A program made the translations under genes and the position numbers. Shown piece after piece: positions 14,305-28,596 of a DNA stretch of 64,000 bases; the first letter of the stretch is position 1, and each line of letters opens with the position of its first letter. The notes beneath the pieces are model-generated. The model saw only the letters and a program-made list of their open reading frames with translations. It ran no database searches and had not been told where the DNA came from. Origin of the DNA: Acidobacteriota bacterium (GTDB taxonomy: Bacteria; Acidobacteriota; Holophagae; Holophagales; Holophagaceae). Where the stretch lies: assembly GCA_016195985.1 (NCBI GenBank), contig JACPYP010000020.1, positions 62,001 through 126,000 on the forward strand, given 5' to 3'.

Positions 14305-15759
14305 TCACTTGACCCTTTTCCAAAGCGCAGTGGCTTCATATGGGGCCCAGTTCGGTCGCGATGTGTGCGACTGCAGACAACGGTACAAGAAACCATCGAC
14401 ATCACAGGCCTGATCACCAGCGATATACCTGATGCCTGGTCCCCAGGTCAAAGAAGTGACAGGCTCGGGCCCGGCCGACCAAAGCGCAGGAACCAAATCC
14501 GGCTTCCAATCGGCCTGCGATGTATGAGATTGAATGCAGCAATAGGTCCGACCCCGATAGGACGCTTTCTCGCCTGCTGAATAAAAGTGACGCGTCTTCC
14601 AACCCGCCGGAGCCGGGGATGTTGAAAATCCGTTCACAACTGCCAGGCGTGTGAGCCGCATCCAAGAATTAGGGGCATCCTTTGGCCTAACCCCCATGGG
14701 AGGAGAATCCAATGCGATGTAGTGGACCTCTGCTCCATATGCGGACTGTTCCACATTGGTGGGATCCTCTTGGTAGTCATACACGATATCGTCTTTAATG
14801 TATTGAAATGTCGAGGCCCAGAAAGTGCCATTTACATTTACCCAGGCATTTACAGTGCTGAAATCATCTGCATGGGTATGGGCCGGGTGGCCCTCGGAGT
14901 TCCCAGGCGCCCAATTTAGAGGAACCGTGGGAGACCAGGGATTGGCTCCCCATCCATTTTTCCAGGCTATCGAGCTGAGATCCATCACGTCCGAGAGGTG
15001 TTTATAGTTTTTATAAGTACCGACAAAAATATCTACCCAATTTTCCCATCCTTCATAATCTGTAAACGAATAAGAAGAATCAACACCGTCAAATACCCCG
15101 TTCAATTTGACGTTTGTGTTACTGACTGGGTCATAGACCATCATGCCATCAAAAAACGGAATCACCACCCTCCTGTCGTATCGAGCTTTTCCCGAGGTAA
15201 CGGCCGCCGTCTTCCACGGAACAAGCGGTCCTTCTACAGTATTGCCATCACTGTATTTTCCCCAGGGACAAGGCACCTGACCTGTCAAATGGAAAGCCTC
15301 GATCTCTGCTTGGGATTTGGGGACCCGCTCCCACGTAAATTGTGTGTCATCCACTAAATTCAGAACCCAGTAATCTCCGGTGGGCGTATCCGAATTCATT
15401 TGGTCCGGATCAATATACAAGCGCGACGACCCCTCCTTCAGCATCCGGTATAGGAATTTGTTTTTTACGGTTTTTTGTACGATCATGCCATCAAGATCCG
15501 TGATGGTCATGGCCCTCCCAAGATCGTCGGGCAATAACCCAATAGGCAAATCACTTTCCGCCTCAAGACCAGGGGCCGCCCAATCATCCTTATCCGCTTG
15601 ATCAAAGGTCCAATAAATAGTGTAAATCGTCTTTTCGTAAAACGCCTGGCTTGAGCCATGGTGATGCGGAACACGGCGTGACCGCCCAACTTGGGCCGGT
15701 GCTATGGCACTGATAGATGCCATGCCAACAAGAACGAGTAGAGTCAGGATTCGCCTCAC
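14305..15759 (-). CDS. secreted protein with two C-terminal CBM5/12-type chitin-binding modules
   Basis: The 484-residue protein has a signal peptide (MRRILTLLVLVGMASISAIA, cleavage near APA-Q). The central part, about residues 30-390, is rich in Trp, Tyr and Asp and is not recognised; no catalytic motif is evident. The C-terminus holds two tandem small modules of CBM5/12 type, one with YRGRTYCCIQSHTSQADWKP and one with VDGFLYRCLQSHTSRPNWAP, each ending in an ALW motif. These modules bind chitin or cellulose. Coding DNA is AT-richer than neighbours, hinting at transfer. It could be linked functionally with the GH9-GH18 enzyme at 25747. Confidence 0.7.
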   Translation of the reverse strand: MRRILTLLVLVGMASISAIAPAQVGRSRRVPHHHGSSQAFYEKTIYTIYWTFDQADKDDWAAPGLEAESDLPIGLLPDDLGRAMTITDLDGMIVQKTVKNKFLYRMLKEGSSRLYIDPDQMNSDTPTGDYWVLNLVDDTQFTWERVPKSQAEIEAFHLTGQVPCPWGKYSDGNTVEGPLVPWKTAAVTSGKARYDRRVVIPFFDGMMVYDPVSNTNVKLNGVFDGVDSSYSFTDYEGWENWVDIFVGTYKNYKHLSDVMDLSSIAWKNGWGANPWSPTVPLNWAPGNSEGHPAHTHADDFSTVNAWVNVNGTFWASTFQYIKDDIVYDYQEDPTNVEQSAYGAEVHYIALDSPPMGVRPKDAPNSWMRLTRLAVVNGFSTSPAPAGWKTRHFYSAGEKASYRGRTYCCIQSHTSQADWKPDLVPALWSAGPEPVTSLTWGPGIRYIAGDQACDVDGFLYRCLQSHTSRPNWAPYEATALWKRVK

Positions 15760-15957: not shown

Positions 15958-17415
15958 ATGCGACCGAAGGAACTCCCCATCGCCATCGATCCGGACTCTC
16001 CCGTGCCCATGGCCCACCAGATCGTGACGGGCCTCATCAGGGCCATCCAGGGCGGCGCCCTGCCTCCCCGTGCAGCCCTGCCGGGCACTCGCGTCCTGGC
16101 GGACTCTTTGCGCGTGAGCCGCAACACCGTATTGACTGCCTACGCCGAGCTCAGTTCCAAAGGCTGGATCGCCGCCACCCATGGGAGCGGCAGCTTCGTC
16201 GCGGACCTGCTGCCCTGGGTCGCCCGCCCCGCGAACGCGTCCAGGCCTGAACCCGAAAGATCGGGGCCGCCGGCCTTCGACCTTCCCGCGCGCCCGGATC
16301 TGGCGACCGACCAGCTGACCAGGGTCTGCAAGCTCTCTCTGGGATTGCCGGATCCGCGCCTGATGCCTGTCGATGAACTGGGACGCGCTTATCTGCGGGC
16401 TCTGCGCCGCCGGTCCCGGGATGTGCTGGAATACGGCGGCCCTTTCGGCAACCGGGAACTCCGCGCCGCGCTTTCGTCCTTCCTGGGCGAGCGGCGGGGC
16501 ATGGCGGTCCCGCCGGATTCGATCCTCATCACCCGTGGAAACCAGATGAGCTTGAACCTCGTCGCGCAGGGTTTGATCAAGCCCGGCGATCGCGCCGCCG
16601 TAGAGCAGCCTGGAAGCCCCCAGGCCTGCGAGATTCTCCGGCACGCGGGAGCGCGCCTGGTCGGCATCCCAGTGGATGAGCAGGGACTCGATGCCGCCGC
16701 CCTGGCCGCCGTCCTCCAGGAAGGCCCGATCCGCCTGCTCTACCTCACCCCCCGGTTCCAGATCCCCACCACCGCTCAACTCTCCGCAGAACGCCGTGAA
16801 CACATTCTGCGCTTGGCCCAGGAACACCGCTTCGGCATCATCGAAGATGATTCCGAAGCGGAATACGGCTTCGAGGAGCGCTTTGTCCCTCCTCTGGCTG
16901 CGGGGCCGGGCTCGGCTTCAGTGATCTACCTGTTCTCCTTCTCCCGACTTCTGGCCCCGGGCATCCGCTTGGGGCTTGTCTCGGCCTCGCCGGATGCGGT
17001 GGACCGCATGGCCCGGATCCGCCGCCGGGCGGACATGCAAGGCGACTTGGCATTGGAGCGGGCCATGGCGGAGCTGGTGGCCGACGGGGAAATCCACCGC
17101 CACATCCACCGGGTGCGGCGCGTCTACCAGGAGCGCCGCGATTTCCTCATCCGGCAGATGGAGTTGAGGTTCGGTTCCCGCTTCAGTTTGACGGTTCCTA
17201 CCGGCGGGCTTTCTCTATGGGTCCGGACAGATCCCTCCTTCGATCTCCCGGCCTGGTGCGAACGCTGCGCCGGAGCCCGGCTGCAGCTTCAGCCGGGACG
17301 GGATTTCATGTTGGATCGCTCTCCCCGGCCTGCCTTCCGGTTGGGTTTCGGATCCTATGAACCCGCAGAGATGGAGGACATTCTGCGGCGCATGGAGAAG
17401 GCGCTTCCGGACTGA
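15958..17415 (+). CDS. MocR/PdxR-family transcriptional regulator (GntR HTH fused to aminotransferase-like domain)
   Basis: The 485-residue protein starts at ATG 15958 behind GGGAG. Residues 1-75 form a GntR winged helix (LPGTRVLADSLRVSRNTVLT, then AELSSKGWIAATHGSGSFV). The rest is a fold-type I aminotransferase-like domain that binds PLP; the segment SFSRLLAPGIRLG contains the region of the usual PLP lysine, but I see no lysine there (SFSRLL where SFSKTL is common). It may therefore not form the internal aldimine. Such proteins often control PLP or amino-acid genes; no clear target is adjacent. Confidence 0.88.
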   Translation: MRPKELPIAIDPDSPVPMAHQIVTGLIRAIQGGALPPRAALPGTRVLADSLRVSRNTVLTAYAELSSKGWIAATHGSGSFVADLLPWVARPANASRPEPERSGPPAFDLPARPDLATDQLTRVCKLSLGLPDPRLMPVDELGRAYLRALRRRSRDVLEYGGPFGNRELRAALSSFLGERRGMAVPPDSILITRGNQMSLNLVAQGLIKPGDRAAVEQPGSPQACEILRHAGARLVGIPVDEQGLDAAALAAVLQEGPIRLLYLTPRFQIPTTAQLSAERREHILRLAQEHRFGIIEDDSEAEYGFEERFVPPLAAGPGSASVIYLFSFSRLLAPGIRLGLVSASPDAVDRMARIRRRADMQGDLALERAMAELVADGEIHRHIHRVRRVYQERRDFLIRQMELRFGSRFSLTVPTGGLSLWVRTDPSFDLPAWCERCAGARLQLQPGRDFMLDRSPRPAFRLGFGSYEPAEMEDILRRMEKALPD

Positions 17416-17446: not shown

Positions 17447-19285
17447 CTACACGGAATCTCCGCCCACCAGCGGCAAGGTCATCTTGAAGCAGGCGCCCCC
17501 TCTGGCCCGGTTTTCGGCCGCCAGTCCGCCGCCATGGCGGGAGACGATGCCATAGCTGATGGAAAGCCCCAGCCCCGAGTTTTTGCCGCCTCCCTCCTTC
17601 GTGGAATAGAACGGAAGGAAGATCTCGGCAAGGCGGGAGGGCTCGATGCCCGGCCCCGTGTCGCAGACGGAGACCAGTGCGTGACCGCCAACCGTCCGGC
17701 ATTCCACCTCAAGCCCGCCACCGTCAGGCATGGCCTCGAATGCGTTCCGGAAGAGGTTCAAGAGCACCTGCCGGATCTCGTTGCGATCCGCCCGGACGAA
17801 TAGAGGCGCGGGCTCCCGGAGGCAGGAAACCGCCACGCCTCCCCGCTCGGCGCCGAAACGGAGCAGTTCCACCAGGTCTTCAGCCAGCCGCGCCAGATCA
17901 AACCGTTCCGGGTGCCTCGGCTTCTTGTCCGAGAAACTGATCAGGCTGTCCACGATCGCGGCGATGGCCTCGACTTCCTCCTCGATGCTGGTGGCCGCCT
18001 TCAGGATTTCCGCGTCGGCCGTGGAGAAGCGGATGTGCTGCAGGTAGTAGCCGATGATGTCCAGCGGGTTGTTGATCTCGTGGGCCACCCCCGCGGTCAG
18101 CAGGCCGAGGGAGGCGAGGTTCCCAGACAGCACGGCCTGCTCCCGCAGACGTTCCTGTTCGGTCACGTCTTCAAGGATGATCAGCGTGCCGATGCGATGG
18201 CCGCCGTCCAGGATGGGATCGGTCTTGATGGTGTGGATTCTTTCGCCGTTCCGCGCGAAGAAGGGCACCCGGTAGAAAGAGGAGGCCCCCGCCTCCCGGC
18301 AGGCGGATTCGAGCAGGGGCACGATCCCCTGGTTCCGCTCGCCCACGCACTGGGCGAGGGAGGCGGCCCTGCCGGGAAGCTGCGGCGCGAAGAGTTCTCT
18401 GGCGCAGCGATTCACCAGCACCGGGCGGAGATCCATGTCCACCACCATGAGGTTCACCGGCAACGAGGTGAGGATGGCTTCGTTGTACTGGATGAGGCGC
18501 GCGAAGCCCGCGTCCCGCTCAATGGCCTCATGGCGCAGCAGTTGAGTGTAGGCCAGCCGCACGAGGGTCACCCGGTCGACATGCTCCACCGCATCCGAGA
18601 AAAGCACCCGGCCTTCGCGCAGAACCGTCACCCGGTGCGCGAAGGCGAAGAGATCGTCCATGCGATGGGTAATGTGCAGGATCGCCAGACCCCTTTCCCC
18701 CAGGCGCCGGAGCAGCGCCTGAGTCTGGGTCAGCGCCTCCGCCGATAGTTTCTCCATGGCCTCATCGAGGATGAGCAGGCGGGGATTCCGCCGGAGGTTC
18801 CGTGCCAGATCCACCAGCACCTTCCCGGACAGATCCAACTCGCCCAGCTTCGCGGAGGGATCGATGGCCAGATCCAGGGTTGACAGGATTTCACCCGCCT
18901 CCTTTTCCAGCTGCTTCCGCGAGCGGATGGGCCAGGGCAGGCCCCGCCCGTCGAGCAGGATGTTTTCCGCGACCGTCAGGCCATCGAAGAGGGCCGGCTG
19001 CTGGGCCACCCATTCGATGCCCAACCGGGCGGCCTGTTTGCGGGTGAAAAACGGATGGCTCCCTCCGTCGATGCGCAGGAACCCCGCATCTGGCCTGAGG
19101 AATCCGGTGGCGATGGCCGCCAAGGAGGATTTCCCAGAACCCCGGTCGCCCACGAGGGCGTGAATCTCTCCAGGCGCGATGTCCAGTGTCGCGCCTTCCA
19201 GGATCCGGTGCGCCCCCTGGGTGAGCCAGAGGTTGGAGAGCCCCAGCAGGGCGCCCGTTCCTCCGGCCACCTCAGGCGATGCCAT
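17447..19285 (-). CDS. fusion of sugar-importer-type ABC ATPase domain, PAS domain and histidine kinase
   Basis: This 612-residue protein joins modules normally found on separate proteins. Residues about 12-250 are one ABC ATPase domain like the N-terminal half of RbsA/MglA: Walker A GDRGSGKS (46-53), Q-loop AQQPALF (94-100), Walker B LLILDEAME (D174, E175) and switch ITHR (H207). The ABC signature is altered to LDLSGKVLV (about 151-158). Residues about 265-385 form a PAS domain; the kinase part has H402 in GVAHEINNPLD, N514 in NLFRNAFEAM, DTGPGIE and SGLGLS. No membrane helix is seen. It overlaps the regulator gene by 14 bp and faces a CUT2 importer operon, so it may sense importer status from the cytoplasm. 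Confidence 0.88.
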   Translation of the reverse strand: MASPEVAGGTGALLGLSNLWLTQGAHRILEGATLDIAPGEIHALVGDRGSGKSSLAAIATGFLRPDAGFLRIDGGSHPFFTRKQAARLGIEWVAQQPALFDGLTVAENILLDGRGLPWPIRSRKQLEKEAGEILSTLDLAIDPSAKLGELDLSGKVLVDLARNLRRNPRLLILDEAMEKLSAEALTQTQALLRRLGERGLAILHITHRMDDLFAFAHRVTVLREGRVLFSDAVEHVDRVTLVRLAYTQLLRHEAIERDAGFARLIQYNEAILTSLPVNLMVVDMDLRPVLVNRCARELFAPQLPGRAASLAQCVGERNQGIVPLLESACREAGASSFYRVPFFARNGERIHTIKTDPILDGGHRIGTLIILEDVTEQERLREQAVLSGNLASLGLLTAGVAHEINNPLDIIGYYLQHIRFSTADAEILKAATSIEEEVEAIAAIVDSLISFSDKKPRHPERFDLARLAEDLVELLRFGAERGGVAVSCLREPAPLFVRADRNEIRQVLLNLFRNAFEAMPDGGGLEVECRTVGGHALVSVCDTGPGIEPSRLAEIFLPFYSTKEGGGKNSGLGLSISYGIVSRHGGGLAAENRARGGACFKMTLPLVGGDSV

Positions 19286-20558
19286 GCTTCGCCAGCTTGT
19301 TGTACAGGGTGCGCCGCGACATATTGAGCAATTCCGCGGCCTGGCTTCGGTTGTTGCCCGCCCGCCGCAGAGCGTCGAGAATCACCTGCTTCTCCCGCTC
19401 ATCCGGGCTGCCCGGGCCTCCGAGCCGGAATCCGGGCGGATGGAGATAGGCCGGAAGGTCCGCCACTCCGATGGTTCCGCCCGGGGCCATGGCCCGCGCG
19501 TAATCGAGCGCATTCTTCAGTTCCCGCACATTACCGGGCCAGGCATGGGCCAGCAGGATCTGCATGGCCGCCACGTCCACGTTCGCCGCTGCATCCTCCG
19601 CCAGGAAATGCGCCACCAGAACGGGGATGTCCTCCAGCCGTTCGCGCAAAGGCGGCACCGCGAACACCGCCGTGCTGAGCCGGTAGTAGAGATCCTCCCT
19701 GAACCGGCCTTCGCGCACCATGGCCGCGATATCCTTGTTCGTGGCGGCGATGAAGCGCACGTCCACCCGGAGGGTCGCCCGGCCTCCAAGCCTCCGGACT
19801 TCCTTGTTCTGAAGGGTGCGCAGGATCTTGGCCTGGATTTCCAGCGACATGTCCCCGATTTCGTCCAGAAACAAGCTGCCTCCGCCGGCCCGCTCGAAGA
19901 TGCCCGGGAATGCTCCGTCCGCGCCGGTATAGGCGCCCCGGTCATGTCCGAAGAGTTCATTGTCCAGCAAGGAGGCGGGAAGAGACGCGCAGTTGATCCT
20001 GCAGAGGGGGGCGGCGGCGCGCGGCGAACGCAAGTGGATGAATTCCGCCAGCAGATCCTTGCCCGTTCCGCTTTCACCGGTGATGAATACGGGATGCTCC
20101 GTCTGGGCCAGCTTCTCCATCCGGTCCAGACAATCCAGCGTACGGGCATTGCGGGTGATGAAGGCGCCCCCGGGCCGCACTCCCCCACTGCCCTTCCCCC
20201 CCATCAGCGCCCTCTCCACGACCCGGAGCAGCGCCGGGAAGGGTGCGGGCTTCTGCACGTAATCGAAGGCGCCTCGCTTGATGGCCTCCACCGCATTTTC
20301 GATGCTGGCGTAGGCCGTGGCCATGACGACGGGGATCGAGGCATCGATCCGGCGAAGCTCCTGGAGCACGTCGAGACCGTTCTCGCGGCCCAAACGGAGG
20401 TCCAAAAGAATGACGTCCGTTCGCCCGGAGCGGACCAATTCGAGGGCCCGTGGACCCTGCAAGGCGAAGCGGCAGCGGTAGCCGGCCCGCTCGAAATCCT
20501 GCGCCAGGATTCCGCAGAGCTTCTCGTTGTCGTCGACGATAAGGATGGAGGGGGTCAC
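19272..20558 (-). CDS. NtrC-family sigma-54-dependent response regulator
   Basis: The 428-residue protein starts with GTG (20558). The receiver has the acidic pair in ILIVDDNEKL, the phospho-Asp in VILLDLRLG and the Lys in VQKPAPFP. The AAA+ domain has Walker A GESGTGKDLLAEF, the sigma-54 contact loop as GAYTGAD (GAFTGA variant), Walker B GGSLFLDEIGD and the R-finger region. The Fis-type HTH at the C-terminus reads NNRSQAAELLNMSRRTLYNK. It is the partner of the kinase fusion that follows with 14-bp overlap. A sigma-54 promoter lies about 180 bp away in front of the divergent importer. Confidence 0.95.
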   Translation of the reverse strand: MTPSILIVDDNEKLCGILAQDFERAGYRCRFALQGPRALELVRSGRTDVILLDLRLGRENGLDVLQELRRIDASIPVVMATAYASIENAVEAIKRGAFDYVQKPAPFPALLRVVERALMGGKGSGGVRPGGAFITRNARTLDCLDRMEKLAQTEHPVFITGESGTGKDLLAEFIHLRSPRAAAPLCRINCASLPASLLDNELFGHDRGAYTGADGAFPGIFERAGGGSLFLDEIGDMSLEIQAKILRTLQNKEVRRLGGRATLRVDVRFIAATNKDIAAMVREGRFREDLYYRLSTAVFAVPPLRERLEDIPVLVAHFLAEDAAANVDVAAMQILLAHAWPGNVRELKNALDYARAMAPGGTIGVADLPAYLHPPGFRLGGPGSPDEREKQVILDALRRAGNNRSQAAELLNMSRRTLYNKLAKHGIA

Positions 20559-20669: not shown

Positions 20670-20733
20670 CTTGAAGGTCCCCTTTAAAAATTTAAATGAG
20701 CAGGTTTAAAAATCACCGACCGGGATGTTTTTT

Positions 20734-20749
20734 TGGCCCGTGCCTTGCG
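20734..20749 (+). promoter_or_regulatory. sigma-54 (-24/-12) promoter of the importer operon
   Basis: The sequence TGGCCC-GTGCC-TTGCG matches the sigma-54 consensus TGGCAC-N5-TTGCA with the invariant GG and GC ten bases apart. It is 34 bp upstream of the binding-protein start codon, which puts transcription start near 20760 and rules out the upstream in-frame start at 20733. Confidence 0.75.
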
Positions 20750-20783: not shown

Positions 20784-21971
20784 ATGCGATATCCCCCCGA
20801 TCGCGCTGGAATCACCCGATGGGCCTCCATGGTTTCCCTGGCGGCCTCCCTAGCAGCCTCTCTGGCGGCTTGGTCGTTGCTGGCCAGCTGCGACCATTCC
20901 AAACCGGCGGCCCATCCGGAAACCGCCGCAATCGCCGAGGTCCGGCCGAAGAGCGCAGAGGACGAAACCCTGGCCAGGGGGCCCAACGGAGAGCCCGCGG
21001 TCCGCGCCTCGCAGGTGGCCATCGACGCAGCGGACGTCGAGAAGGTGAGGGCCCTCCAAGCCCGGGCCGTGATGCTTTGGGCAGGTTCCGGCGAGTGGTA
21101 CACCGCCATCACGGCCGGCGCCCAAGCCGAATTCACCAGGTTGGGCGTGCGCGTGGTCTCCAAGGCCGATGCCCAGTTCGACCCCGCGCGCCAGGCCACA
21201 GATGTGGAGACAAGCCTGGCTCTGAAACCCGACATCATGCTGGCGCTTCTGGTGGACCCCGTGTCCGCCGCCCGGGCCTTCCAGCCCGCCGTGGATGCCG
21301 GCGTGACCCTGGTGTTCGCCGACAACGGCGCCGATGGCTACCAAGCCGGAAAGCAGTGCTCCGCCATCGTTACGGGCGATCAGTTCGGCATGGGACGGGA
21401 AGCCGCCCGCTTGCTGAGCGAAGCTCTGGGCGGGCGCGCGCCCATCGGCTACATCTATCACGATGCCCGGTTCTTCGTGACCAACAACCGCGACCGTGAA
21501 TTCAAACGCACCGTGCTGTCGCGGTACCCCGGGTTGAAGATCGTCGCCGAGGCAGGTTTCTCCCAGGAGAACAAGACCGAAGAGGTGGCGGCGGCCATGC
21601 TCATCCAGCACCCGGAGGTCAAGGGCATCTACGTGGCCTGGGACGTGGCCGCGGAGGGCGTCGTAGCCGCTCTCCGCGCGGCGGGAAGGTACGACGTGAA
21701 GGTGGTCACCCATGATCTGGGAGCCACCAACGATTTGGACATGGTGATGGACGGCAACGTGTGCGCCAAAGTGGCCGACCGGCCCTTCGAGATCGGGGAG
21801 ACCATGGCCCGGGTGGCGGCGCTCCGGCTCATCGGAAAACCCGTCCCCCCCTTCATCGTCACCCCCTCCTTCGCCATGGACAAGCGCACCGTGGCGGAGG
21901 GGTGGCAGCAGACCCTCCACAAGGCCCCGCCATCCATTCTGTTGAAGGCGCTCGCCAGGCAGCGCTCATGA
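20784..21971 (+). CDS. sugar-type ABC importer substrate-binding lipoprotein (RbsB-like, CUT2)
   Basis: The 395-residue protein starts at ATG 20784 with AGGAG eight bases upstream. An N-terminal hydrophobic stretch with repeated SLAA units ends in a lipobox LLASC. The mature part is a periplasmic binding protein of type I: AGSGEWYTAITAGAQAEF, PDIMLALLVDPVSA, ADNGADGY, GYIYHDARFF and YVAWDVAAEG are at the expected positions. The usual ribose-site residues cannot be confirmed, so the ligand is unknown. It is the first gene of an operon with permease, YhfX-like protein and ATPase; its stop overlaps the permease start by 4 bp. Confidence 0.88.
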   Translation: MRYPPDRAGITRWASMVSLAASLAASLAAWSLLASCDHSKPAAHPETAAIAEVRPKSAEDETLARGPNGEPAVRASQVAIDAADVEKVRALQARAVMLWAGSGEWYTAITAGAQAEFTRLGVRVVSKADAQFDPARQATDVETSLALKPDIMLALLVDPVSAARAFQPAVDAGVTLVFADNGADGYQAGKQCSAIVTGDQFGMGREAARLLSEALGGRAPIGYIYHDARFFVTNNRDREFKRTVLSRYPGLKIVAEAGFSQENKTEEVAAAMLIQHPEVKGIYVAWDVAAEGVVAALRAAGRYDVKVVTHDLGATNDLDMVMDGNVCAKVADRPFEIGETMARVAALRLIGKPVPPFIVTPSFAMDKRTVAEGWQQTLHKAPPSILLKALARQRS

Positions 21972-22972
21972 GCCGCGAAGCCTCCCAGCTTTCGGCTCCC
22001 ATTGGAATCCAACCGCCACCGGGCCGCCCTGGCTGGCACCGGATCGAATTCCGGAGCTTGGTCCCCTACCTGAGCTTCGCGGTGATCGCGGCCTTCTTTT
22101 CCGTGGTCCTCTACGACAAAGGCTTCCTGTCTCCAGGGAACCTCATGAATATCCTGCGGCAGACAGCCATGGTCTCCGTGATGGCAGTGGGCATGACCTT
22201 CGCCCTCTCCGCAGGAGAAATCGATCTGTCCATCGGAGCGACCGTGGCCCTGGCCGCGCTGGCGACAGCATTGACCCTGAACCGCTTCGACAGCATCCTG
22301 CTCGCCGTCGCGGCGGGACTGGGTGTGGGCCTGGCCGTGGGGCTCGTGAACGGGCTCGTAACCACCAAAGCGAGGATTCCCGCCTTCCTCGTCACCCTCG
22401 GAACCTCGGGGATCGTGAGCGGGTTCGCGCGCACGATTACGAATCTGGAAGCGGTCCCCACCATCGACAAGACCTTCAACACCGTATTCGGAAGCGGCGA
22501 TGTGGGCGCCATCTCCACCCTGTTCCTTTGGACGGCCCTATTCCTGGGAATCGGCCACACCCTGCTGAACCACACTCCGTTCGGCAGGGCCCTCCTCGCC
22601 ACCGGCGGAAACCGCGCGGCCGCGCGCTATTCCGGAATCCGAACCGACCGCATCCGCATCGCGGCCCTCGTCATCAGCGCCCTGACCGCCGCCTTCGCGG
22701 GCATCCTCTACACCGGCCGGTTGCATGGGGCCCGCTACACCCTGGGCGACACGGACCTCATGACGGTCATCGCGGCCGTCATCATCGGCGGCACCAGCTT
22801 CTCGGGCGGCCGGGGCACTGTGGCCGGGAGCATCCTGGGTTCCATCGTCATGGGCATGCTCAACAACGGCCTCCTGCTCCTTGGACTCTCCGTCTCCGAA
22901 CAGATGATCGCCCGGGGCGTCATCATCATCCTCGCGGTGTCCTTGAGCCTGCGGGAAGCCAAGGACAACTGA
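21968..22972 (+). CDS. CUT2-type ABC importer permease (RbsC-like)
   Basis: The 334-residue protein starts at the ATG overlapping the previous stop. It has eight to ten membrane helices and family segments FALSAGEIDLSIGATVALAA and GGTSFSGGRGTVAGSILGS, the latter being the coupling motif of RbsC/XylH-like permeases. It forms the membrane channel for the binding protein upstream and the two-domain ATPase at 24205. Confidence 0.92.
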   Translation: MSREASQLSAPIGIQPPPGRPGWHRIEFRSLVPYLSFAVIAAFFSVVLYDKGFLSPGNLMNILRQTAMVSVMAVGMTFALSAGEIDLSIGATVALAALATALTLNRFDSILLAVAAGLGVGLAVGLVNGLVTTKARIPAFLVTLGTSGIVSGFARTITNLEAVPTIDKTFNTVFGSGDVGAISTLFLWTALFLGIGHTLLNHTPFGRALLATGGNRAAARYSGIRTDRIRIAALVISALTAAFAGILYTGRLHGARYTLGDTDLMTVIAAVIIGGTSFSGGRGTVAGSILGSIVMGMLNNGLLLLGLSVSEQMIARGVIIILAVSLSLREAKDN

Positions 22973-23020: not shown

Positions 23021-24214
23021 ATGTTTCTCCAATCCCTCAAAGCTCGGAACCCTGAGCTGATCCGCGCTGCCGTCCGTTTCCACCGGGAGGGATCCATCCC
23101 GGCGAACAGCTACGTGCTGGACCTGGACGCCATGGAGGAAAACGCGCGCCTGCTTTCCGCGGAGGCCGCCAAGCACGGCCTCCGCGTATTCGGCATGGCA
23201 AAACAGTTCAGCCGCCACGCTCAGGCCCTCAATGCCGTCGCCAAGGGAGGCATCGACGCCTTCGTGGCCGTGGATCTCGCCTGCGCCCGGGCGATCCACG
23301 GAAATGGCCATCGCCTGGGGCACCTGGGCCACCTGGTCCAGATCCCCCAGGCCGAGGCCGCCACGGCGATGGCCATGACTCCAGACTACTGGACCGTTTT
23401 CAGCCTCGACAAGGCGCGGGAAATATCCGAACACTGCCGCCGGAAGGGCAGCGTTCAATCGCTCCTCCTGCGAATCCACGCGGAGGGGGATACCTTCTAC
23501 CACGGCCATGAAGGAGGGTTCTCCGCCGAGACGCTTGAGACTGCGGTGGAGGCCATCCAGGCGATGGAGGGCCTTCGCTTCGCCGGCCTCACCTCCTTCC
23601 CGGCCCTTCTTTACGATGGGAAAGCGCAGGAGGTGCTGCCCACCCACAACCTCGCCACCCTGAAGCAGGCGGCTGCCCGGCTTTCCGGTGGCGCGGGCCG
23701 CCATATCGAAATCAACGCGCCAGGCACCACCAGCTGCGTGGCTCTGCAAACGCTGGCGGAAGCGGGCGCCACCCAAGTGGAGCCGGGCCACGCCCTCACG
23801 GGGACCACCCCCCTTCACGCGGTGCGGGAGCTGCCGGAACGCCCCGCCATGCTGCACCTCTCGGAGGTCTCACATGCGCATGGCGGCAAGCCCTTCTTCT
23901 TCGGAGGGGGCCTCTACATCGATCCCGTGTTCCCCGACTATCCCCTCAAGGCCCTGGTCGGCGCGGATCCCGATGCCCTGATGGCTCAGGAAGTCGCCGC
24001 CGAAATCCCCCCCGATTCGGCCATCGACTACTACGGCATTCTGCACCCGTCCAAATCCCAGCGCATCCGGACAGGGGACACCGTGATCCTCGGATTCCGC
24101 GCCCAGGCCTTCGTCACCCGGGCCTACGTCGTGGGGATCGAGGGCCTGGCCTCCGGACAGCCGCAGGTCAGCGGCATCCACAGCTCCGACGGAAGAGATG
24201 TCCGATGGCCCTGA
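23021..24214 (+). CDS. YhfX-like PLP-dependent protein (alanine racemase N-terminal-type fold)
   Basis: The 397-residue protein starts at ATG 23021 behind CGGAG. The N-terminal barrel carries SYVLDLDAMEENARLL and the likely PLP lysine in RVFGMAKQFSRH. The C-terminal part (GGGLYIDPVFPDYP, IDYYGILHPSKSQRIRTGD) resembles E. coli YhfX and relatives. The reaction is not established; racemase or aldolase activity on an amino acid or related compound is possible. Sitting between permease and ATPase of a CUT2 importer, it may act on the imported compound. The end overlaps the ATPase start by 10 bp. Confidence 0.7.
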   Translation: MFLQSLKARNPELIRAAVRFHREGSIPANSYVLDLDAMEENARLLSAEAAKHGLRVFGMAKQFSRHAQALNAVAKGGIDAFVAVDLACARAIHGNGHRLGHLGHLVQIPQAEAATAMAMTPDYWTVFSLDKAREISEHCRRKGSVQSLLLRIHAEGDTFYHGHEGGFSAETLETAVEAIQAMEGLRFAGLTSFPALLYDGKAQEVLPTHNLATLKQAAARLSGGAGRHIEINAPGTTSCVALQTLAEAGATQVEPGHALTGTTPLHAVRELPERPAMLHLSEVSHAHGGKPFFFGGGLYIDPVFPDYPLKALVGADPDALMAQEVAAEIPPDSAIDYYGILHPSKSQRIRTGDTVILGFRAQAFVTRAYVVGIEGLASGQPQVSGIHSSDGRDVRWP

Positions 24215-25740
24215 CCGCATCTCCGGATCACCCCAAGGCCACGCCAGCCATTGAAGTCCGCGGCATTCGCAAGGCCTTTGGCGTCCCCGTCCTCCACGGC
24301 ATCGACCTCCGCCTCATGCCCGGCGAAATCCTCGGGCTGGCCGGCGCCAATGGCGCGGGGAAATCCACGCTAATGAAAATCCTCTGCGGGGCCTGCTCCA
24401 GGGATGGGGGCGAGATCCTGGTCCAGGGCCGAGTGGTGGCCTTCCGCAGCCCGAAGGAGGCGCAGGAGGCTGGTCTCGCCATGGTGTACCAGGACTTCAG
24501 CCTCATCCCCACCCTCACCGCCGCCCAGAACCTGTTCCTCGCCCGGGAACCCCGCCGGGGCGGCTTCTTCATCGACCATCGGGCCTGCCGCGACAGGGCC
24601 TCGCGTCTGTTCTCCGGACTGGGGGTGGACGTCGATCCCGGCCTCCCCGTAGAAGCGTTGCCCATCGGCTCCCAGCAGGTCGTGGAAATCGCCAAGGCCC
24701 TCAGCCTTTCGCCATCGGTTCTGATCCTCGACGAACCCACCGCCTCCCTTTCCCACGCGGAGATCGAAACCCTGTTCGCCCTTCTGCGAGGCCTGCGCGA
24801 CCGCGGAACGGCCATCATCATCGTCACCCACCATCTGCGCGAGATCCTGAATCTCTGTGACCGCGTGACCGTGATGAGGGATGGCCTGGTCGCCCTCGAT
24901 GCCCCCATTCCGGACACCAGTCTCGAGGGCATCATCACCGCCATGATCGGCCCGAAAGCCGAGATGGCCCCATGGCCCATCAAGACCATCCGGCCTGCGG
25001 GGGAGGCGGCCCCCATCGTGCTGCAGGTGGAGAACCTCGGGGTGCGAGGCCGCCTGCAGGGCATCACCTTCTCGGTCCGGCAGGGTGAAATCCTAGGCAT
25101 GGCCGGTGTGCTGGGAAGCGGCCGGACGGAGCTGCTCCACGCCCTCTACGGCACGCTGGAGGCCCGCGAAGGCCTGATCAAGGTCGGCGGGAACGCGGTC
25201 CGCATCAGGCATCCCCGCGAGGCCCGTGCCCACGGCATCACCCTCGTGCCTGAAAACCGCCGCCGCGATGGCATCATCGCCGGTCACTCGGTGCGCATGA
25301 ACATCCTCATGAGCGTGTGGTCCCAGGTTTCCCGCGGCCCCTTCGTGGATGATGCCCGGGGGCGGAATCTGGCCGGGCGCCTGGTGGAGCGCCTCCACAT
25401 CCGCGCCGCAAGCCTTGAACAACCCGCGGGCAGCCTGTCCGGCGGGAATCAACAGAAAACGGTGCTGGCGAAAAACATCGCGGGCCCCCACCGGATTCTT
25501 CTGCTGGACGAGCCCACCGCGGGGGTGGATGTGGGTTCCCGGGCCGAGATTGCCAGGGCCGTCGTGGATCTGGCGGAATCAGGCACGGCCGTCATCCTCG
25601 TCTCGTCCGAGTTCGAGATGCTGGAAGCCCTGTGCGAGCGGGTGCTCATCCTCAAGCGGGGCAGGATCGCCGGCGAACTCAACCGGGCCGCCGGCGATGT
25701 GATCAGTGAAGCCGGGCTGCTGGCCCTGGCCCAAGGCTGA
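24205..25740 (+). CDS. CUT2-type ABC importer ATP-binding protein with two ABC domains (RbsA-like)
   Basis: The 511-residue length is normal for RbsA/MglA. The first domain has Walker A GANGAGKST, Walker B LILDEPTASL and switch IVTHH. The second has a degenerate Walker A (GVLGSGRTE, as is usual in the family), signature LSGGNQQKTVLAKN, Walker B LLLDEPTAGVD and VSSEFE in place of the switch His. It energises the importer. It ends 6 bp before the convergent GH9-GH18 gene. Confidence 0.93.
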   Translation: MALTASPDHPKATPAIEVRGIRKAFGVPVLHGIDLRLMPGEILGLAGANGAGKSTLMKILCGACSRDGGEILVQGRVVAFRSPKEAQEAGLAMVYQDFSLIPTLTAAQNLFLAREPRRGGFFIDHRACRDRASRLFSGLGVDVDPGLPVEALPIGSQQVVEIAKALSLSPSVLILDEPTASLSHAEIETLFALLRGLRDRGTAIIIVTHHLREILNLCDRVTVMRDGLVALDAPIPDTSLEGIITAMIGPKAEMAPWPIKTIRPAGEAAPIVLQVENLGVRGRLQGITFSVRQGEILGMAGVLGSGRTELLHALYGTLEAREGLIKVGGNAVRIRHPREARAHGITLVPENRRRDGIIAGHSVRMNILMSVWSQVSRGPFVDDARGRNLAGRLVERLHIRAASLEQPAGSLSGGNQQKTVLAKNIAGPHRILLLDEPTAGVDVGSRAEIARAVVDLAESGTAVILVSSEFEMLEALCERVLILKRGRIAGELNRAAGDVISEAGLLALAQG

Positions 25741-25746
25741 CGGCTT

Positions 25747-28596
25747 TCAGCGGGGGCCGGCTTCGGCCTTCGGCGTGAAGCCCTTCCGGATGACCTCCAG
25801 CAGCCGCCCGTCGTCGCCGTGGTATTCCCAGAACATCACCCCGCCCAAGCTGCGATCCAGGATGTAGCGGCATTTGGCACCGAGGCTTTCCCCGTCCTCG
25901 TAAGTGATCCAGAGGCCCTTGGACGGGTTGTGGAGGTAGGGCGCCTGGGACAGGTCGTCCCAGAAGCGCAGGAAGCCGTCCTTGTTCTCCAGCTTGTCCT
26001 TGAGGTTGGCAAAGGAGGTGAAGAGGTTCAGCTTGGCGGCCCCGCCGGGCTGGTAGAGGCCGTGCGCCTTGTCGCGGACCCCACCCCAGGCCTTGCCGTA
26101 GAAGGGAACGCCCAGCACCAGTTTCCGCTCCGGCACGCCCGCGGCCACGAAGTGGTCCACGATGGTGCTGGCCGCGTAGCCCTTGGGGTTGGCCCAGTGG
26201 GTGAACAGGGGCGCGTGGTGCCCCGTGGTGGCATCGGCATCCGCTCCGAACTGGTCGTAGGTCATCAGGTTCACGTAGTCGAGGTGGCGCGCCATCTGAT
26301 CCATCTCAGTGTTGGCCAGGAAGGTGTCCATGGCGCCCGCGGCGATGGTGAGCAGCAGGCGCCGGCCAAGGCGGGATCCCAGGCGATCCAAGCCTGCCCG
26401 CAGGTCCGCCATCAGCAGGGTGGCATTGCGCTTGTCCTCGGGCCGGTTGACGTTGCCGTTGCCGGGCAGGCCCGGGTACTCCCAATCCACGTCCAGGCCA
26501 TCCAAATGGTGCCGCTCCACGAAGGCCAGGGCGCTGTCCACAAAGACGCGGCGGGATTCCGCCGTGAGGGAGACATCCGAGAAACCGCCGGACCAGGTCC
26601 AGCCCCCCACGGAAACCAGGATCTTGAGGGCGGAGTTCTTCGCCTTCAGGCCGCTGAGCACCTGGAAATTCGCCGCATCGTTCCGGAAGCCCTCCACCAT
26701 GCGCCCGCCCTTGATGTCCGCGAAGGCATAGTTGATGTGGGTCAGGCGGGCGGCGTCGATTTCCTTGGGATCCATCTTCCGGTCCTGGGGAAACACGTAG
26801 GCGATGACCGTCCGGTTCGCCGGCGGCACCCCGGCCCGGTCTCCCAGGGCCACGGCCAGCAGGTACCAGGCTCCGTGGGGCAACCACTGCTCGACCCAGC
26901 GCCAGTCGTCATCGCGGCCCGTAACCGAGTAGGGCACGTTGAAGTCGATGTCGTGCTCGTCCTTCAGGCCCGAGGTGATGCCGTTGACGATGCCGCCCGG
27001 CACGTTCTCGTACTGCCACGTACCCATCCACCCGTACTCGGGGTTGTTGTGCCCGGTGCCGTGGAGCATGGAGGCATCGAAGGGGTTGAGGCCCAGGATC
27101 CAATTCAGTTGATCCGCCGCATAGCTGCGGAGCTTCACCTGGAAGGCGCTCTCGTCGGCGAAATGCGGCGCCGCCAGCCGGGCCGCGGCCGCCAGAGAGG
27201 CCAGGCGCGCGTTCTCGCCCTGCCACCAGGGGGCGGTTTCCGTATCGTGGGGAAAGAAGAAGGCCGTTCGCCGTTCGCCGGCCTTGTTCTGAACCTTCTG
27301 CCGGGCCAGGCCGAAGGGATTGGGCACTTCGGAGGTCACGGCCAGCTCGAAAGCCAGAGAGCGGCGCACCGCGTCGAGGATGCGGGGCTGCATCGCCTTG
27401 GGAGCGAGGTCGAGGAAGGCCAGGAGCGCCACCACCGGAAGCCCCGCGTCGGAGGGATGGAAGAAAGGTCTGTCCTTGTCATCGGCCCGCCAGGAGCCAT
27501 CCGGAAGCAGCCGCGCCATCATCTGTTCGGCCCGTTTCGCAGCGGCCGACAGGTATCTGGGATCCTGGGTGGTGCGGGTCAGCTCCGTAGCGGCCGTCAG
27601 GGCCGTCATGTCGTCGAGGAGGTTTTCCTTGTGGTCGTTGAGCAGCTCGAGATTGTGGGCTTCCAGGTGGGCGAAGGCCGCCTCGGCGGCCTTGCGGTAG
27701 GTGGCGGGGTCGAAATCTCCGCCCTCCGGCAGACGGGCCGCCATGGCCAGCGCCGCGATGGCCATGCCCGCGCCGCCCCGGTAGCCCACCTGGCTGCCCA
27801 CGCCTTTGTCGTACTGGGCGATCCGGCGATCCTCGGGCTTCTTGCCCGAGCCCGGGGCCATGACCGTCTGGTGGAACGAACCTTTGGGATCCTTGATGCG
27901 CACCAGGTAGTCGGCGCCGAAGAGGGCCTCGTCCACCAGGCGCCGCCGGATCTGCGTGTCGTTCACTTCGTTCCGGGCAGCCAGCAGCTCTTGGGCGCGC
28001 AGCAGGCTGTAGACCACCAAGGGGATCTGCTGGGTGTTGAAGTAGGTGGCCGAACTAAGCTGGGAGAAATGCTTCCCGTAGTCGCCGGTGGCGTCGAACC
28101 ATCCGCCGTGGGCATCCACGCGCTGGCCCGTCTCCTTCACCAGCACGTGGCGGTCGGCCTTGTCCAGCAGGCCCGAGCTGCGCTGACCTTTGAAATAGGC
28201 CAGCACGTTGGAGAGCGTGTGCCGCTCCAACACCCGGGCCTGCACCTTGAAAGGCAGGGATCGCGCGGCGCGGTCGCCCTGGTAGGCCACCAGCACGTAC
28301 TCGCCTTCCAGCTGAAGATCCGTGAAATCCAGAGGCCAGAACGTCCAGTCGCGCCAGCGATCCACCGCCGTGCCCACGCCGATGTCGCCCTTGAACACCA
28401 CCCGGTCCGCGGGCCAGGTGCGGATTTCATAACGGTCGAAGGTGTCTCCCGCCCCATCTTTCACCACGGCCCGCACCACGGCGCGCTTGGCTCCGTAGCG
28501 TTCGTAGCCCAGGTGGTTGGTGAGCACCAGGGGGGCTTCCCCTGCGAACAGGCTCGCGGCAAACAGGCAACAAGCCAGGCGAAGCAGGCGTTTCAT
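25747..28596 (-). CDS. secreted GH9-GH18 bifunctional glycoside hydrolase
   Basis: The 949-residue protein has a signal peptide (MKRLLRLACCLFAASLFAGE). Residues about 22-120 form an Ig-like CelD-type domain (LVLTNHLGYERYGAKRAVV). The GH9 catalytic domain spans about 125-600 and has GGWFDATGDYGKHF (catalytic Asp region, about 165-178) and WWQGENARLAS (Glu region, near 459). The C-terminal GH18 domain, about 612-940, has the chitinase motif DGLDVDWEYPG (near 698), with the catalytic Glu. GH18 acts on beta-1,4-GlcNAc; GH9 includes cellulases and exo-beta-glucosaminidases. With the NagX-like gene upstream (13 bp), a chitin or chitosan substrate is the best guess. Confidence 0.87.
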   Translation of the reverse strand: MKRLLRLACCLFAASLFAGEAPLVLTNHLGYERYGAKRAVVRAVVKDGAGDTFDRYEIRTWPADRVVFKGDIGVGTAVDRWRDWTFWPLDFTDLQLEGEYVLVAYQGDRAARSLPFKVQARVLERHTLSNVLAYFKGQRSSGLLDKADRHVLVKETGQRVDAHGGWFDATGDYGKHFSQLSSATYFNTQQIPLVVYSLLRAQELLAARNEVNDTQIRRRLVDEALFGADYLVRIKDPKGSFHQTVMAPGSGKKPEDRRIAQYDKGVGSQVGYRGGAGMAIAALAMAARLPEGGDFDPATYRKAAEAAFAHLEAHNLELLNDHKENLLDDMTALTAATELTRTTQDPRYLSAAAKRAEQMMARLLPDGSWRADDKDRPFFHPSDAGLPVVALLAFLDLAPKAMQPRILDAVRRSLAFELAVTSEVPNPFGLARQKVQNKAGERRTAFFFPHDTETAPWWQGENARLASLAAAARLAAPHFADESAFQVKLRSYAADQLNWILGLNPFDASMLHGTGHNNPEYGWMGTWQYENVPGGIVNGITSGLKDEHDIDFNVPYSVTGRDDDWRWVEQWLPHGAWYLLAVALGDRAGVPPANRTVIAYVFPQDRKMDPKEIDAARLTHINYAFADIKGGRMVEGFRNDAANFQVLSGLKAKNSALKILVSVGGWTWSGGFSDVSLTAESRRVFVDSALAFVERHHLDGLDVDWEYPGLPGNGNVNRPEDKRNATLLMADLRAGLDRLGSRLGRRLLLTIAAGAMDTFLANTEMDQMARHLDYVNLMTYDQFGADADATTGHHAPLFTHWANPKGYAASTIVDHFVAAGVPERKLVLGVPFYGKAWGGVRDKAHGLYQPGGAAKLNLFTSFANLKDKLENKDGFLRFWDDLSQAPYLHNPSKGLWITYEDGESLGAKCRYILDRSLGGVMFWEYHGDDGRLLEVIRKGFTPKAEAGPR

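Follow-up and report, generated by a model that had tools for sequence, protein, structure and literature searches.

The locus analysed here raises the question of what half of an importer-type ABC ATPase is doing at the head of a soluble histidine kinase, beside a complete importer that has an ATPase of its own. A first-pass annotation of the window (the whole 64,000-nucleotide stretch of DNA, from an Acidobacteriota bacterium) had suggested that this half lets transport activity set the output of the kinase. The features concerned are the following.

17447..19285, minus strand: soluble histidine kinase of 612 residues, ABC (NBD1-type)–PAS–HisKA–HATPase_c
18755..19252, minus strand: ABC domain core of the kinase, residues 12–177, with Walker A at 46–53, Q95, a degenerate signature at 150–155 and Walker B at 170–175
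17924..18109, minus strand: HisKA domain of the kinase, residues 393–454, with phospho-acceptor His402
17468..17788, minus strand: HATPase_c domain of the kinase, residues 500–606
19272..20558, minus strand: NtrC-type response regulator (receiver, sigma-54 AAA+ domain with GAYTGA loop, Fis HTH; from Pfam)
20733..20749, plus strand, toward the importer: sigma-54 (-24/-12) promoter-like site TTGGCCCGTGCCTTGCG, p about 0.02 by shuffles
20784..21971, plus strand: Peripla_BP_4 substrate-binding protein, probably a lipoprotein (LASC)
21830..22972 (start approximate), plus strand: CUT2 permease (BPD_transp_2)
23021..24214, plus strand: YhfX-like/alanine-racemase-fold PLP-enzyme gene, inside the importer operon
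24205..25740, plus strand: RbsA-type two-domain CUT2 ATPase, with LSGGNQQ in NBD2 and no LSGGQ in NBD1

The kinase is encoded in a single unbroken frame, and the combination of ABC, PAS and histidine kinase parts announced for it is borne out: ABC_tran matches residues 29–177 (E 1e-20), HisKA (E 2.6e-6) and HATPase_c (E 8.5e-22) lie above their Pfam cut-offs, and PAS_4 at residues 272–379 falls just below its own (21.1 against 23.1 bits), with a PAS-like segment at this region in an AlphaFold2 model. The model (mean pLDDT 80), in which the relative placement of the domains is unreliable because pTM is 0.43, runs from an ABC-like segment through helices 238–254 and 259–274 and the PAS-like segment to a long kinase helix, and Foldseek matched it both to sensor kinases (4gcz, ZraS) and to ABC ATPases (a MacB domain, MetN, MalK). 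Walker A (GDRGSGKS), Walker B (LLILDE, with D174/E175), H207 just past the ABC core and the LDLSGK signature all lie at the residues first reported. The H-box histidine, N-box and HATPase_c domain that define histidine kinases are all present, and H402, E403, N510 and N514 are invariant in the 28 family kinases described below. No transmembrane segment was found in the kinase (maximum 19-residue Kyte–Doolittle score 1.28, against 2.37 for the permease as control).

The regulator and kinase genes share a 14 bp overlap, and Pfam recognizes in the regulator the receiver, sigma-54 AAA+ and Fis HTH domains of the NtrC type. AtoS and AtoC are the nearest NCBIfam models of the pair; the kinase scores 207 bits against the AtoS model NF008468, far from the equivalog cut-off of 646, and the regulator 396 bits against the AtoC cut-off of 714. 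The divergent CUT2 importer is also as annotated, complete with substrate-binding protein (ATG 20784 is a likelier start than TTG 20733, which coincides with the promoter-like site), permease and its own two-domain ATPase, whose NBD1 signature reads LPIGSQQ. The YhfX-like gene sits between the permease and ATPase genes. A MocR/PdxR-like regulator (15958-17415, plus strand; 303 bits against an NCBIfam cut-off of 320), convergent with the kinase gene, brings the PLP-linked genes near the importer to two. Two further neighbours are a 949-residue protein with a CelD_N/GH9 part and a GH18 (chitinase-type) domain (25747-28596, minus strand), convergent with the importer operon, which may hint at a chitin-derived importer substrate, and a secreted-looking protein of 484 residues with two CBM5/12 (chitin-binding type) modules (14305-15759, minus strand).

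Is the fusion peculiar to this contig? A scan of genome contigs gave a first full-length relative (L008) in a Spirochaeta MAG, with 39% identity across residues 13–607 and the same gene plan of regulator, kinase and divergent CUT2 importer; the YhfX-like gene is missing from its importer operon. A two-protein profile of the window and L008 kinases was then used in phylum surveys that scored just a few candidates per genome, and these returned 27 full-length copies in 17 of 393 sampled genomes of the phylum to which the Spirochaeta MAG belongs (three per genome at most), and, besides the window, kinase-core matches only in the groups of the Anaerolineae, Clostridia and Thermodesulfobacteriota MAGs and the window's own phylum (331, 388, 327 and 345 genomes). 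The window kinase and the 27 spirochaete-group copies form the family set (n=28). Within the window's class, none of 92 other genomes searched has the fusion, and 45 other genomes searched from the window's genus lack its substrate-binding protein; searches of viral contigs and plasmids gave no relatives. Since the fusion is sporadic in the window's class and recurrent in the spirochaete group, its distribution suggests horizontal transfer; the G+C content of the region is mostly 0.64–0.67, like much of the flanks. We found no description of an ABC–histidine-kinase fusion in the open-access literature, and because the search covered that literature only, we regard its novelty as provisional.

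Open reading frames called in up to 20 kb around every copy, and compared with the window and L008 proteins, place an NtrC-type regulator immediately upstream of the kinase in 27 of 27 copies and, for 25 of the 27, a CUT2 ATPase with adjoining permease no more than about 5 kb away. With L128 set aside for its 5.9-kb contig, a CUT2 importer lies beside the kinase in 25 of 26 testable copies, and in the window; the copy that differs, L120, has none in the region fetched. Six family genomes of 3.3–4.7 Mb hold 28–58 permease genes of the importer's family, so that chance would place one within 8 kb with a probability of no more than 0.11–0.24 per locus, and the observed linkage is far beyond this. 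The census proposed in the first-pass annotation thus came out in its favour: the genetic linkage expected of trigger-transporter sensing was found, and neither an artefact nor a family whose ABC domain is never near importers, the first ground named there for abandoning the idea and part of the second, agrees with these relatives. Several family loci have sugar-type genes nearby (FGGY kinases, nucleoside hydrolase, arabinose isomerase). In L120 (8662-17130) the kinase, which is without the Walker B glutamate and the H-loop histidine, adjoins genes for a LacI-type regulator, an FGGY kinase, an aldolase and L-arabinose isomerase, and in L110 (6621-9952, minus strand) a second kinase (HAMP, His_kinase-type PF06580) and a regulator-like gene directly follow the family kinase.

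What, then, does the pair regulate? Scanning for -24/-12 elements on the importer-directed strand, with p at or below 0.025 relative to shuffled versions of the region scanned and a score cut picked after the scores were seen, we found an importer-directed sigma-54 site matching the consensus in 22 of 26 importer-bearing loci, window included. Many are near-perfect (for example TTGGCACGCTCTTTGCA in L133), and four loci (L113, L126, L134 and L135) have no clear site. In L119, L122 and L124 the importer follows the kinase, and there the site lies in the gap between kinase and importer and is absent upstream of the regulator. The window site, 35 bp ahead of the likely ATG, is by itself weak, and the argument is carried by the family-wide pattern of predicted sites; a search of the window's intergenic region for a conserved palindromic activator site gave imperfect candidates only. 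Because the sites point at the importer, we link the regulator to it: the regulator very probably acts at the importer-directed site, and control of the adjacent importer by the kinase and regulator is well supported.

The origin of the ABC domain was addressed with a tree of the kinase ABC domains together with both halves, NBD1 and NBD2, of the ATPases from 26 neighbouring importers. In it, the kinase domains form one clade (support 0.945), which joins the CUT2 NBD1 halves (support 0.73) and not NBD2, and the NBD1 of the local importer is the best match in just one locus. Recent copying of the local importer ATPase is thereby ruled out; the fusion probably arose once and was then kept with diverging importers. 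G46, G51, K52, Q95 and D174 are invariant in all 28 domains, E175 is kept in 25 and H207 in 17, with the H-loop retained by the window and its nearest relatives and lost in 11. The Walker A, Q-loop and Walker B aspartate of an ABC ATPase are therefore present throughout, the LSGGQ signature occurs in none of the 28, and the domain is a single NBD, not the pair found in RbsA-type proteins. Because the Walker A and B residues are conserved, retention of ATP binding is supported. The change of signature pointed out for the window is real but not unusual, since LSGGQ is likewise missing from NBD1 in all 26 neighbouring importers, and NBD2 has LSGGNQ in all 26 together with a mostly degenerate P-loop, an asymmetry described, with its degenerate site, for RbsA (PMC11466899). 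Since NBD1 borrows LSGGNQ from NBD2 and the kinase lacks an NBD2, the kinase would carry an ATP-binding half-engine without its partner half.

This half has also drifted from its source. A kinase-specific P-loop histidine (GEHxxGKS), present in 26 of 28 members, replaces an asparagine invariant in the 26 neighbouring NBD1 domains; residue 48 of the window kinase (19142-19144, minus strand) is arginine, as is the same position in L132. Given this histidine and the loss of the H-loop in 11 members, the nucleotide site is, as far as sequence conservation tells, specialized away from NBD1. Compared with NBD1, the kinases are less conserved in the signature helix, the Q-loop and post-Q-loop and the helical region, and more conserved at residues 231–240, where the linker to PAS begins. 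In ABC importers generally, the Q-loop and helical regions make the permease contacts. Sequence searches for a solved CUT2 ATPase or permease structure on which to map contacts gave none at the thresholds applied. Four homologous kinases outside the family have Cache/HAMP or GAF domains and no ABC domain where the ABC domain sits, so that by domain order it occupies the sensor position, and it is likely to be the sensor.

Considering these data together, we favour, with a probability of roughly 0.5, a reading in which an NtrB/AtoS-type cytosolic kinase has captured the NBD1 half of a CUT2 ATPase as its input domain, touches the importer transiently and, with its NtrC-type partner, would activate a sigma-54 promoter of the CUT2 importer next to it. 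This ABC half would bind ATP, and because LSGGQ is missing the usual ATP sandwich could not close on the domain itself. The partner it needs would be NBD2, the LSGGNQ-bearing half of the importer's ATPase, or else the permease surface where NBD1 sits. Whether the importer is engaged or idle would set the position of the ABC domain, and this position may be passed through helices 238–274 and PAS to choose between kinase and phosphatase output. As to the parts of this reading, we consider it an even bet that the ABC domain contacts NBD2 or the permease at all, and put forward a shade more tentatively that the captured half probes, or competes at, the ATPase or permease of its own importer and so reads the transport cycle directly from the cytosol, passing it on to sigma-54 transcription of that importer without a membrane sensor or a PhoU-like go-between.

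Docking on the importer is thus plausible but unproven. Tree distances of the ABC domain and the permease correlate (r 0.41, Mantel p 0.001), as do those of the kinase core and the receiver with the permease (0.37 each); partial correlation with the permease was 0.21 for the ABC domain vs 0.05, and the ABC excess over the kinase was positive in 80% of bootstraps, which is not significant. Since kinase core and receiver correlate too, the pattern shows an apparent long partnership of the whole module with the importer, not a contact, and we reject ABC-specific coevolution as proof of docking. This small excess, the relaxed regions of expected permease contact, the specialization of the nucleotide site away from NBD1 and L120, with its missing importer, all count against docking.

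The relaxed contact regions give some room to a less likely alternative, namely that the ABC domain binds ATP or ADP, and PAS perhaps a cytosolic ligand, so that the kinase reports energy or substrate state and controls the importer genes with no importer contact. Walker A and the Walker B aspartate are invariant and the hydrolysis residues drift (H207 and E175), the P-loop histidine is specific to the kinases, and gene regulation alone accounts for the importer linkage. It leaves unexplained, however, why an NBD1-derived domain should be tied to CUT2 importers and not to other targets. It is distinctly improbable, in our view, that the ABC domain merely helps to dimerize or position the kinase and that PAS is the real sensor. 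Many soluble NtrB-type kinases do sense via PAS, all members have a PAS-like region, and the linker at 231–240 shows higher conservation than its NBD1 counterpart, but one would not expect a scaffold to keep its P-loop lysine, Q-loop and Walker B aspartate unchanged in 28 diverged proteins. We argue more strongly still against the ABC part being a working ATPase subunit of transport that takes the place of the importer's NBD1 or swaps with it: the NBD1-type motif set and the H-loop kept in the window and its nearest relatives would suit such a role, yet none of the neighbouring importers lacks a complete two-domain ATPase of its own, the kinase domains have lost residues that NBD1 conserves near the signature, Q-loop and Walker B, and several members are without catalytic residues. 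A gene-fusion, sequencing or assembly artefact, to which the absence from 92 genomes of the window's class might have pointed, is ruled out for practical purposes by 27 full-length relatives with the same gene plan in 17 other genomes.

We therefore return to the captured NBD1 half as input domain, which suggests that an ABC nucleotide-binding domain can serve as a sensor module; part of the uptake machinery has apparently been turned into the sensor governing the uptake genes. Even for PhoR and PstSCAB there is no agreed account of how a sensor kinase learns the working state of an ABC importer, and a kinase with an ATPase half and no membrane segments, importer-adjacent in nearly all copies, offers a compact soluble system for direct testing. 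Among known proteins, the N-terminal NBD of CUT2 ATPases (RbsA, AraG, YtfR) is the closest kin of the kinase ABC domain and has the same kept and missing motifs, but the kinase has one half only, no NBD2, its own P-loop and a kinase attached. Kinases of the AtoS, ZraS and NtrB type with AtoC/NtrC-type regulators share the PAS–HisKA–HATPase_c core and the sigma-54 regulator, and differ from the window pair, which scores far under the equivalog cut-offs, in that its input is an ABC ATPase half. CbrA, an SLC5 transporter–kinase fusion, likewise combines a histidine kinase with a transport-protein segment (PMC7096432), but there it is a membrane transporter domain and here a soluble ATPase domain. 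In PstSCAB–PhoU–PhoR/PhoB the importer genes are under a two-component system that is itself governed by the ABC importer, the conformation of PstB being thought to be the signal read by PhoR (PMC5775613); that kinase is membrane-bound and PstB and PhoU are separate, whereas the window has a soluble kinase with a fused NBD-type domain, a CUT2 importer and a sigma-54 type regulator. In MalFGK2–MalT the ATPase subunit of the idle importer holds a cytosolic regulator, MalK of the resting transporter binding MalT (PMC6468293); MalT is a STAND activator, and that system has no kinase, nor does its regulator carry a fused NBD. By analogy, the family may work like the transporter coupling of PstSCAB–PhoR and MalK–MalT while being a member of neither.
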